36,562 bases of DNA, taken from contig JACPII010000104.1 in NCBI GenBank assembly GCA_016188175.1, positions 1-36,562 of the forward strand, read 5' to 3'. This DNA comes from Candidatus Woesearchaeota archaeon (GTDB lineage: Archaea > Nanobdellota > Nanobdellia > Woesearchaeales > JACPBV01). A program made the position numbers and the translations under genes. This document shows, in pieces, positions 26,468 through 29,835 of this stretch (positions within the stretch are counted from its first letter, which is position 1; every line of letters starts with the position of its first letter). The notes beneath the pieces are model-generated. The model saw only the letters and a program-made list of their open reading frames with translations, ran no database searches and was not told where the DNA came from.

Positions 26468-27961
26468 TCATTTGTTATCCTCTTCGTCGAGGCCTTGCAG
26501 GGGTTTTCTCACGCTAACCTTTGTCCCTCTTTCATCGGCCTTTTGGGCAGATTGTCCATGGTGTTCTTCTTTCTGGCCGGAACTGGTTTTGGCAGCGTTC
26601 GCCTTAAAGTATTTTTCCTTGAATTCAGGGCTGATCCTGGTGAGATCTTCCTTGTTCATCGAGCCGAGGAGAGCCCATGCAAGGTCAAGGGTCTGCTGGA
26701 TGCTCCGGTCATCGCGCTTCCCCTGGCGCACGAATTCCTGCTCAAAGATCGCTGCGAAATGGAGAAGGCGCTTGTCTTTCTCTGACAACGCATCTTCCCC
26801 GACGATGGCGACAAGCCCCCGAAGGTCGCGGCCTTCAGCATAGCTTGCATAGCACTGGTCGGAAACCTGCTTGTGGTCTTCTCTGGTGTTTTTCTTCCCA
26901 ATGCCCAGATTCATCAGGCGGGATAGGGATGGAAGGACATCTATCGGCGGGTAGACATTTTTGGTATGAAGCTCCCTGCTCAAAACAATCTGGCCTTCAG
27001 TGATGTAACCCGTCAGGTCTGCAATAGGATGAGTGATATCGTCGCCTACCATCGTCAGGATGGGTAGCTGGGTTATTGACCCTTTTTTACCTTTGATGAT
27101 GCCCGCGCGCTCATAGATAGTGGCAAGGTCGGTATACATATACCCAGGGTAACCCCTTCGTCCAGGAATTTCCTCACGGGCGCTCCCTATCTCACGCAAG
27201 CTTTCGCAGTAGTTGGTCATATCAGTCAAAATGACGAGGACGTGCATGTCTTTTTCATAGGCAAAATATTCTGCGGCGGTCAGCGCCATCCTGGGTGTGA
27301 TCAACCGCTCGACAGCCGGATTGTCGGCAAGGTTGAGGAATACGATACTTCTTTCAATTGCACCGGTCTCCTCAAAATCCTTGATAAAATGCTGGGCCTC
27401 CTCATTGGTGATGCCCATTGCTGCAAAGACAACAACGAATTTCTCCTTCATCCCGATAACTTTTGACTGGCGGGCAATCTGAAGGGCAATCTCATTGTGG
27501 GGAAGCCCGGAACCCGAGAAAATCGGGAGCTTCTGGCCCCTGACAAGGGTGTTCATCGCATCGATGGTAGAGACGCCCGTCTGGATGAAATCAGCAGGGC
27601 TTCCCCGAGCATAAGGATTAATAGCGGCGCCCGTGATATCGAGTTTTTTTTCGGGAATGATCCCCGGCCCCTTATCTAACGGCTCTCCCTTCCCGTTGAG
27701 GATCCTGCCGAGCATATCTTCGCTCACTCCCAGCTTCATGGAGTCCCCTAAAAATTTAACAGTTGCATTTTTGTCAATCCCCCTTGTCCCTTCGAAGACC
27801 TGGACGACAACGAGTTTTTCAGAGGTATCAAGCACCTGGCCAGTCCGGATTTCCCCGTCACCAAGCCTCAGTTTGACAATTTCACTGTATCCGACCGGCT
27901 CTGTGTTCTCGACAAAAACCAGCGGCCCTTCAATCCTTGTTATGGTCTTATACTCTTTCAT
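26468..27961 (-). CDS. atpB: A-type ATP synthase subunit B
   Basis: 497 aa; [59 protein letters not shown]. Confidence 0.97.
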
Positions 27962-28066
27962 TTTGACTTTTCACCTTCCGTCATTGCTCTCAAAATGGAA
28001 GCTACAAACTGGGGGGAGTATGCTTTCATTTTGACATTTCACCTTTTGTAATTGCTCTCAAGATGC
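27955..28066. repeat. Tandem direct repeat (44-bp copies at 68-bp offset) across the atpB translation-initiation region
   Basis: CTTTCATTTTGACTTTTCACCTTCCGTCATTGCTCTCAAAATGG (27955-27998) vs CTTTCATTTTGACATTTCACCTTTTGTAATTGCTCTCAAGATGC (28023-28066), 38/44 identical. Confidence 0.85.
27958..28029 (-). CDS. Candidate 23-aa micro-ORF B upstream of atpB (ATGA overlap with atpB)
   Basis: [30 protein letters not shown] upstream; TGA overlaps the atpB ATG. Confidence 0.35.
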
Positions 28067-28097
28067 GGCCTTCAATGGGATGTGAGCCTGCATTCAT
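28026..28097 (-). CDS. Candidate 23-aa micro-ORF A just after atpA (ATGA overlap with micro-ORF B)
   Basis: [30 protein letters not shown] lies inside the atpA 3' end; same length and C-terminal pattern as micro-ORF B. Confidence 0.35.
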   Translation of the reverse strand: MNAGSHPIEGRILRAITKGEMSK

Positions 28098-28098
28098 C

Positions 28099-29835
28099 TC
28101 AGTTCACCGACACAACGCTAAATTCTTTTGCCATCTCTTTTTCAAGCTCATGGAGCAAAGGCTCGTATTGGGCAACGAATTTCAGCTCCCCAATCCTGTC
28201 CTTCGATTTAATGGAAAGTATCCTTCCAATGTCTGCCCCCTTTTCCAATGCGTCAATGGAGGCTCTGCCATACTCCAAAATGATGCCCATGGTCTTATAA
28301 GCCTTTTCGAGGGTGCAGAAGGTATCGACCTCATGGTAGGCATTCTGCTGGAGGAAAAATTCTCTGATAAGCCTTGAGACTTCCAACGTAATCTGCTGTT
28401 TTTCTGGCAGGGCATCGGATCCGACAAGCTGGACAATCTCCAAAAGCTTTTCTTCTTCCTGGAGAAGGGTTTTCATCTCTTTAACCCGGGCAGTCCAGTC
28501 TGGAGCGACATGCTTATCGAGCCATGGGCCCAGAGTTTCAAAATAGAGGGAATAACTGGTCAACCAGTTTATCGAAGGAAAATGCCTTCGCTGGGCAAGC
28601 TTTGCATCAAGGGCCCAAAACGTTTTGATGACTCTTAACGTTCCCTGGGTGACCGGCTCAGAGAAATCACCGCCTGGGGGGCTGACTGCACCGATAACAG
28701 TGACGCTGCCAAGCTTTTCCGTCCCGAAGGGGATGACTCTTCCGGCGCGCTCGTAAAATTCAGCCAATCGTGTGGAAAGGTATGCCGGGTAACCTTCTTC
28801 TCCGGGCATCTCTTCGAGGCGGGAAGAGATCTCCCTCATTGCCTCTGCCCAGCGTGATGTAGAATCCGCCATCAATGCAACATCATAACCCATATCCCTG
28901 AAGTATTCTGCGATGGTTATCCCGGTGTACACAGAAGCTTCCCGGGCTGCAACAGGCATATTGGATGTGTTGGCAATAAGGACTGTCCTGTTCATCAGCG
29001 GTTTTCCTGATTTTGGATCGGTCAAATGCGGAAATTCCGTCAGGACTTCAGTCATCTCATTTCCACGCTCACCGCAGCCGATGTAAACAATGATGTCGGC
29101 ATCACACCATTTGGAGAGAGCCTGCTGGGTAACCGTTTTTCCAGCCCCGAAGGGGCCGGGAATAGCGGCAACTCCGCCTTTTGCGACAGGAAATAGGCCA
29201 TCGATAACGCGCTGCCCCGTGATAAGGGGTGTTTCCGGCAAAAGTTTTTTTGCGCTTGGGCGCGGGATCCTCACGGGCCACAGGTGGAACATCCTGAGGC
29301 TTGTCCCATTTTCCAAAGTTGCAACAGGCTCGTCGATAGTAAAACTTCCGCTTTTGATAGAGTTTATTTTTCCTGAAATTCCCGGCGGGACAAGAACCTT
29401 GTGGATGATTCCGGGCATCTCTTCAACCGTTCCAAGGATAAAACCGGAGGAGACAGCGTCCCCTTTCTTTGCAGCAGCAAAAAACTGCCATCTTTTTTCG
29501 TGGTTTAGCCCGGGGGCCTGAACTCCCCTTTTGATAAAATCCCCCATCTTATCCTTGAGGATCGGGAGGGGCCTTTGGATACCGTCATAGATGCTCGATA
29601 AGAGGCCGGGGCCAAGCTCAACAGACAATGAGGCTCCCGTCGGCTCAACATCTTCTCCGGGCTTCAGGTTTGATGTATCTTCGTAGACCTGGATGGTGCT
29701 CAGCTCCTCCTGGATCCTGATAACTTCCCCCATGAGCCTTTCCTTTCCGACAAAGACGACATCATACATCTTTGCGTCGATTCCTTTCGCCTCGATGACC
29801 GGGCCGGCAATTCGGTAAATTTTTCCTTTATCCAT
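28099..29835 (-). CDS. atpA: A-type ATP synthase catalytic subunit A
   Basis: 578 aa; [70 protein letters not shown]. No intein insertion seen. Confidence 0.98.

Follow-up and report, generated by a model that had tools for sequence, protein, structure and literature searches.

Dispersed palindromic elements of Woesearchaeales and a putative termination-reinitiation relay between atpA and atpB

The 137-nt gap between the genes atpA and atpB in a Woesearchaeales genome, coding for the subunits A and B of the A-ATPase, is occupied by two mini-ORFs. These probably belong to a tandem pair of Woesearchaeales T-core-T′-linker-T elements and, judging from the sequences, would form a termination-reinitiation relay which links the synthesis of AtpB to that of AtpA. 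The value of this finding rests in the element family and not in the two peptides, and the feature is more general than could be seen from this one locus. The analyzed stretch of DNA (the window) comprises 36,562 nt and is contig 13 of a 1.64-Mb genome with a completeness of 75%. The closest relatives of its AtpB carry the label Woesearchaeota. The junction contains the following features:

28099 to 29835, minus strand: atpA (A-ATPase subunit A; Pfam ATP-synt_ab, ATP-synt_ab_Xtn), stop codon at 28101-28099
28104 to 28108, minus strand: GGTGA, Shine-Dalgarno-like, 6 nt ahead of the ORF1 start
28026 to 28097, minus strand: mini-ORF 1 (ORF1, 23 codons), beginning 1 nt past the atpA stop, its TGA shared with the ORF2 ATG (ATGA)
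28039 to 28043, minus strand: GGTGA, Shine-Dalgarno-like, 9 nt ahead of the ORF2 start
27958 to 28029, minus strand: mini-ORF 2 (ORF2, 23 codons), its TGA shared with the atpB ATG at 27961 (ATGA)
27971 to 27975, minus strand: GGTGA, Shine-Dalgarno-like, 9 nt ahead of the atpB start
26468 to 27961, minus strand: atpB (A-ATPase subunit B; Pfam ATP-synt_ab, ATP-synt_VA_C)

An earlier sequence-only reading had described two tandem, ATGA-linked ORFs of 23 codons between atpA and atpB, each start, including that of atpB, preceded by a GGTGA motif, and had taken the two ORFs to be related. The present analysis agrees on all of these points (ORFs at 28097-28026 and 28029-27958), and the 68-nt units that carry the ORFs align gap-free with an identity far above chance. 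The junctions atpA/ORF1, ORF1/ORF2, and ORF2/atpB amount to +1, −4, and −4 nt on the minus strand. At all three junctions, stop and start codons overlap or lie next to each other, as is characteristic of termination-reinitiation coupled ORFs.

Structure and distribution of the element family

The 68-nt units belong to an element family which is dispersed upstream of unrelated genes, carries arms matched to its targets and shows a bias in reading frame. By its sequence, the element is palindromic and restricted to the order Woesearchaeales. Two profile models were used, the sequence-only profile R1, which includes copy 1 of the window, and R2, which was made without any window sequence. In the window, the elements comprise the following parts:

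28030 to 28097, minus strand: element copy 1 (68 nt, decayed), 49/68 identical to copy 2
28070 to 28090, minus strand: degenerate core of copy 1, CAGGCTCACATCCCATTGAAG (sequence comparison, model R1)
27962 to 28029, minus strand: element copy 2 (68 nt), 34.7 bits and E=5.2e-10 in the window by model R2
28023 to 28033, minus strand: T1 arm of copy 2, CAAAATGAAAG, including the ORF2 start codon
28002 to 28022, minus strand: core of copy 2, CATACTCCCCCCAGTTTGTAG (family consensus CATACTCACTnnCGTTCGTAG)
27990 to 28001, minus strand: T′ anti-start arm of copy 2, CTTCCATTTTGA, complementary to the ORF2 and atpB start regions with one mismatch
27955 to 27966, minus strand: T2, TCAAAATGAAAG, the atpB start region and a direct repeat of T1 (direct-repeat score 16)

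Copy 1 reaches E=1.4e-7 with R1, a model that includes this copy, and E=0.37 with R2, which was built without it. As R2 barely recognises copy 1, its assignment is based on the tandem position and the similarity to copy 2. A simulation with 19 random substitutions left 44% of the copies open, and hence the two open frames of the window have little weight alone; it is the related elements elsewhere that carry the weight. In the genome of the window itself, the profile model found four matches, including the two in the window and one partial core match at C69:5112-5136. The latter is the only other exact core of this genome and lies within a terminator-like palindrome (CCGGCGGCATACTCACTATCG...GGCCGGATTTTTT). 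A high-copy repeat in this genome was rejected, as a second full copy was absent by blastn.

Within the order, the unit or its core is present in 72 of 353 genomes (R1, E≤0.02). The best-scoring R1 copies are located upstream of genes other than atp; confirmed or readable targets encode a Dph6-type diphthamide synthase, a transaldolase, a cytidylate kinase, a UDP-sugar dehydrogenase, an epimerase, a methyltransferase, and PurH, and atpB is found among the targets as well. A strict pattern with three mismatches matched the genome G041 only, so an exact, rigid motif dispersed in the relatives was discarded and a profile was required. Twelve of 371 sampled genomes of the phylum contain the exact core, all of them within the order and none outside, and the reversed control pattern gave zero matches. 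The core occurs in no IMG/VR viral contig, which speaks against a viral origin. A known RNA family was rejected by the Rfam covariance models, which remained without a hit in 27850-28200 at E-values of up to 1; at 12 other element loci, tRNA was the only family matched. The mini-ORF peptides have no Pfam match over the cut-off. A search of openly accessible journal papers brought up no description of a comparable element for DPANN archaea.

In the copies at start codons, the order is T1, core CATACTCACTnnCGTTCGTAG, T′, linker, and T2. Here, T2 corresponds to the genuine start region of the gene (typically TCAAAATGAAAG), which T1 repeats directly and to which T′ is antisense. The arms vary with the gene, as seen for the loci L229 (ATGCAAGC..GCTTGCAT..ATGCAAG), L234 (ATGAGGCA..GCCTCAT..ATGAGGCA), and L217 (ATCTTCATTTTGAA against TTCAAAATGAAGAT). 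When T′ of 44 elements was compared with the start of its own gene, the best complement scored 10.7, compared to 8.2 ± 0.2 for permuted genes (p≤2e-4), and the T1-T2 direct repeat scored 10.4, compared to 7.8 (p≤2e-4). This matching of the arms can reflect the origin of the element, selection on pairing, or both. A conserved RNA fold was rejected for the first alignment, for which RNAalifold predicts none; as modeled, the pairing of the arms is target-specific and does not follow a consensus. The core terminates in GTAG, and the following 45 nt are folded with a mean z of about −2.0 in start-codon copies and about −1.2 in the others, relative to mononucleotide shuffles.

The core is also found outside of coding contexts. 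One copy within a tRNA gene (L320) reaches the Rfam tRNA cut-off (51 bits) with the insert in place, and four copies (L241, L246, L277, L278) were assigned to the T-loop of tRNA genes by eye. Furthermore, ~60-nt intergenic palindromes with the core in the loop form genome-specific families, with 24 exact cores in G304 (L283-L301) and 14 in G341 (L303-L312). Coding and non-coding copies show the same core variants. As the core is kept in tRNA genes and in non-coding palindromes, its conservation is not due to the peptide.

The core CATACTCACTnnCGTTCGTAG within Woesearchaeales tRNA genes (L320, L241/L321, L246, L277, L278, L158) is intron-like, with arms matching the tRNA; it lies in the anticodon loop in L320 and apparently in the T-loop in several others. 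In addition, arrays with at least three elements in tandem were observed before single genes including atpB (G295:C4:40451-40654 and 46920-47149, G295:C7:69424-69556, G296:C3:37608-37772). The spacings in these arrays are 80, 107, and 47 nt, and every spacing in G295 is 2 mod 3.

Reading frame of the mini-ORFs and the atpA-atpB spacers of relatives

A mini-ORF ends on the ATGA of the gene only if the distance between the ATG of the element and the ATG of the gene is 2 mod 3. This applies to 34 of 45 start-codon elements (binomial p=8e-9) and, without the commonest length of 68 nt, to 20 of 31 (p=4e-4), p-values which are optimistic since insertions of shared origin are not independent. Apart from 68 nt, distances of 44, 47, 50, 53, 56, 62, 65, 101, and 122 nt are represented. 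For these final counts, four elements with wrong automatic starts, mostly from tandem arrays, were removed or corrected. The TGA of the upstream gene also overlaps the ATG of the element in 12 of the 45 cases. The coupling frame is missed by 11 of the 45 elements and some others end 2-29 nt early, from which it follows that coupling is not obligatory. Within the linker, the frame of the mini-ORF has the fewest stop codons (16/335, compared to 23/329 and 40/324 in the other frames).

The atpA-atpB spacers were taken from 107 distinct loci, in which the genus of the window is represented by one genome. Most of these spacers have a length of −5 to +15 nt and no ORF, and thus a micro-ORF strictly specific for atp was rejected. 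Several long spacers contain a unit that is recognisably related to that of the window, namely those of G156 (MKEYSLKFAAFILRTYQEDNSK∗), G159 (MKAASLTFVAFILRAKNKSINSK∗), G147/G354 (MKEYSLTFVASILTINNLEDSSK∗), and G041 (MKQTHFVRSFILKAIRRQAK∗), the last with ATGA at each end. In the spacer of G170 (L099), a tandem pair is found with a spacing of 68 nt as in the window. The sequence-only reading had named a lack of the micro-ORFs in close relatives as an argument against itself; they are indeed lacking in many relatives, which fits recurrent insertion and not an ancient feature of atp.

An ORF that opens with ATG and ends exactly on the atpB ATGA is present in 11 of the 24 spacers with a length between 30 and 200 nt, where 2.6 are expected from shuffled spacers (p=6e-6, again optimistic, as related insertions are not fully independent). 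The core is absent from five of these 11 (L003, L012, L049, L052, L108), which suggests that the atpA-atpB junction has been bridged repeatedly. The coupled mini-ORFs of these five loci without the ACTCACT core have a length of 11-21 codons.

These counts bear on a neutral dispersed palindrome as an alternative, which inserts at or duplicates AT-rich starts, its in-frame ORFs being a by-product of a 68-nt unit that happens to be 2 mod 3. The prevalence of 68 nt in the sample, the core conserved in non-coding contexts, the unremarkable openness of both window ORFs and the out-of-frame elements are in line with it. However, 2 mod 3 is also preferred among the lengths that differ from 68 nt, the atpA-atpB gap repeatedly holds coupled ORFs that lack the core, and the linker stops are least frequent in the frame of the mini-ORF. 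We therefore consider a neutral palindrome unlikely, though worth keeping in mind. A related proposal of the sequence-only reading, a tandem duplication of the atpB start, holds in so far as each unit contains a copy of the start region; it falls short in that the constant core, the antisense arm and the dispersion of this palindromic element go beyond a local duplication.

Several further observations were made at the atp loci. A whole extra gene lies between atpA and atpB in L087, L088, and L110 as well as in L059 and L070, by eye coding for a glutamine-amidotransferase-like protein or a small membrane protein. In a comparison that involved G001, G003, and G027, the AtpB of the window (26468-27961) shares ~79% identity with genomes of other families and ~62% with its own family. 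Both AtpB types occur on one contig in G027, which points to two A-ATPase lineages and transfer.

A putative ribosome relay and its alternatives

In Haloferax and Escherichia coli, reinitiation drops steeply with the distance between stop and start, and ~20-40 nt nearly abolish it; in one Haloferax gene pair, it was lost completely with a gap of 22 nt (PMC10666635, PMC6728339). For reinitiation, no more of the upstream gene than its final 15 nt is needed, as shown in E. coli, and overlapping gene pairs are enriched among the subunits of heteromeric complexes (PMC10666635). A gap of 137 nt between atpA and atpB is thus expected to break the coupling, which the chain of +1, −4, and −4 nt junctions would restore.

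According to the relay that we favour, a ribosome finishing atpA would reinitiate on ORF1, next on ORF2 and next on atpB, so that the 23-codon relay keeps the synthesis of AtpA and AtpB coupled past the inserted hairpin. The translation of each unit would melt the T′:T hairpin able to mask the next start, and the peptides would be by-products. The best reading of the family is therefore an interspersed palindromic element which seems to be tolerated since its mini-ORFs provide such a relay. Most likely, the elements are small palindromes, selfish or generated by mutation, which spread and were retained at starts where coupling survives. We infer from the sequences that the mini-ORFs are translated, that reinitiation and T′:T melting occur, and that the elements are mobile and involved in regulation. 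A reinitiation relay had already been proposed by the sequence-only reading, and it gains support from the elements in the ATGA frame at unrelated genes as well as from the excess of coupled atpA-atpB spacers. As a counterpoint, the GGTGA ahead of each start could serve independent initiation.

A regulated attenuator was considered in addition. Here, T′ would pair with either T1 or T2 and the progress of the ribosome on the mini-ORF would switch the downstream gene, as in mgtQ-mgtB. The fact that T′ is complementary to the start of its own gene fits such a switch, as does the predicted pairing with the element interior, which has a mean probability of 0.62 for the gene ATG and 0.39 for the element ATG with a favoured partner that differs among elements; several copies also carry SD-like motifs within the hairpin loop. 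On the other hand, the targets show no common signal or pathway, a consensus structure is missing in the initial set, and the atpB start of the window is predicted to be mostly open (0.79), which makes an attenuator rather improbable. The ORF2 start is predicted to be paired with T′ in the element interior (0.94), so that the hairpin in the window would gate ORF2 and not atpB.

An intron that is spliced from the mRNA, as must happen in the tRNAs which carry the element, would restore a single start codon, and a splice joining the direct repeats would leave the gene intact. The cores inside tRNA genes agree with this, but the bias towards the ATGA frame is needless if the element is spliced, and inspection by eye did not demonstrate a bulge-helix-bulge motif at the element borders, so that we rate splicing as very improbable. 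The sequence-only reading had also suggested micropeptides with a function at the A3B3 ring of the ATP synthase, in favour of which are the open ORFs with SD-like motifs between the genes of the catalytic subunits. We regard these as hardly credible, as almost the same peptides are encoded ahead of unrelated genes and the core persists in tRNA introns and in palindromes outside of coding regions. Moreover, the two window copies encode different peptides (14 codons, 11 of them nonsynonymous, unlike purifying selection), no Pfam domain is matched, and many relatives are devoid of the ORFs.

Beyond the relay at single genes, the family may tentatively be seen as an undescribed class of archaeal mobile hairpins. 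By copying their target, these would insert at start codons and into the loops of tRNAs, with the constant 21-nt core between direct and inverted copies of the target; at genes, the translation of the mini-ORF would open the anti-start hairpin and pass the ribosome on via ATGA, and tandem insertions would form multi-step relays. If the favoured relay holds, short interspersed repeats of a large uncultured archaeal order hit start codons and yet leave operons functional, as a relay ORF in the coupling frame comes with each repeat. Such a family would offer a natural test bed for archaeal termination-reinitiation as well as a route to micro-ORFs without peptide function, which might be mistaken for micropeptides. 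It would also raise the question of how an insertion gains an antisense copy of its own target.

Comparison with known systems

By analogy, the element would functionally be most like attI1 ORF-11 of integrons and mgtQ-mgtB. In class 1 integrons, a short ORF of the recombination site attI1 (ORF-11/ORF-17) boosts the next gene by translational coupling, with a minor role of the peptide sequence (PMC8876359). In contrast to the element, attI1 is bacterial and bound to one fixed site adjacent to the integrase, and has neither a target-matched antisense arm nor a genome-wide dispersion at start codons. The short ORF mgtQ is located between mgtC and mgtB of Salmonella and controls the downstream start over alternative stem-loops (PMC8092293), but it is a single regulated locus and not part of a repeat family. 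Archaeal termination-reinitiation pairs with ATGA overlap (Huber et al., 2019, PMC6728339; 2023, PMC10666635) share the 4-nt overlap of stop and start and the subunits of heteromeric complexes with the window. However, these pairs couple gene to gene directly, whereas the coupling in the window would run via two non-conserved, repeat-supplied ORFs.

Among the dispersed repeats, GTAG-tagged REP palindromes and Rickettsia palindromic elements (PMC3733652) are similar in that they are short dispersed palindromes. The GTAG tag is directly followed by a palindrome in REPs as well as in the element, where GTAG ends the core right before the hairpin, and some REPs are also located inside or beside ORFs (PMC3733652). 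The element differs from REPs in being archaeal, in its constant 21-nt core and in its arms, which follow the target and are not uniform within a genome as REP stems are. A Y1_Tnp domain (RAYT-type) was found in 12 of 20 genomes searched, including that of the window, and is absent from the near-complete G295, G014, and G041, all of this referring to presence at genome level. The genome of the window contains two genes for Y1 (IS200-like) transposases (C74:13235-13504 and C2:13025-13372).
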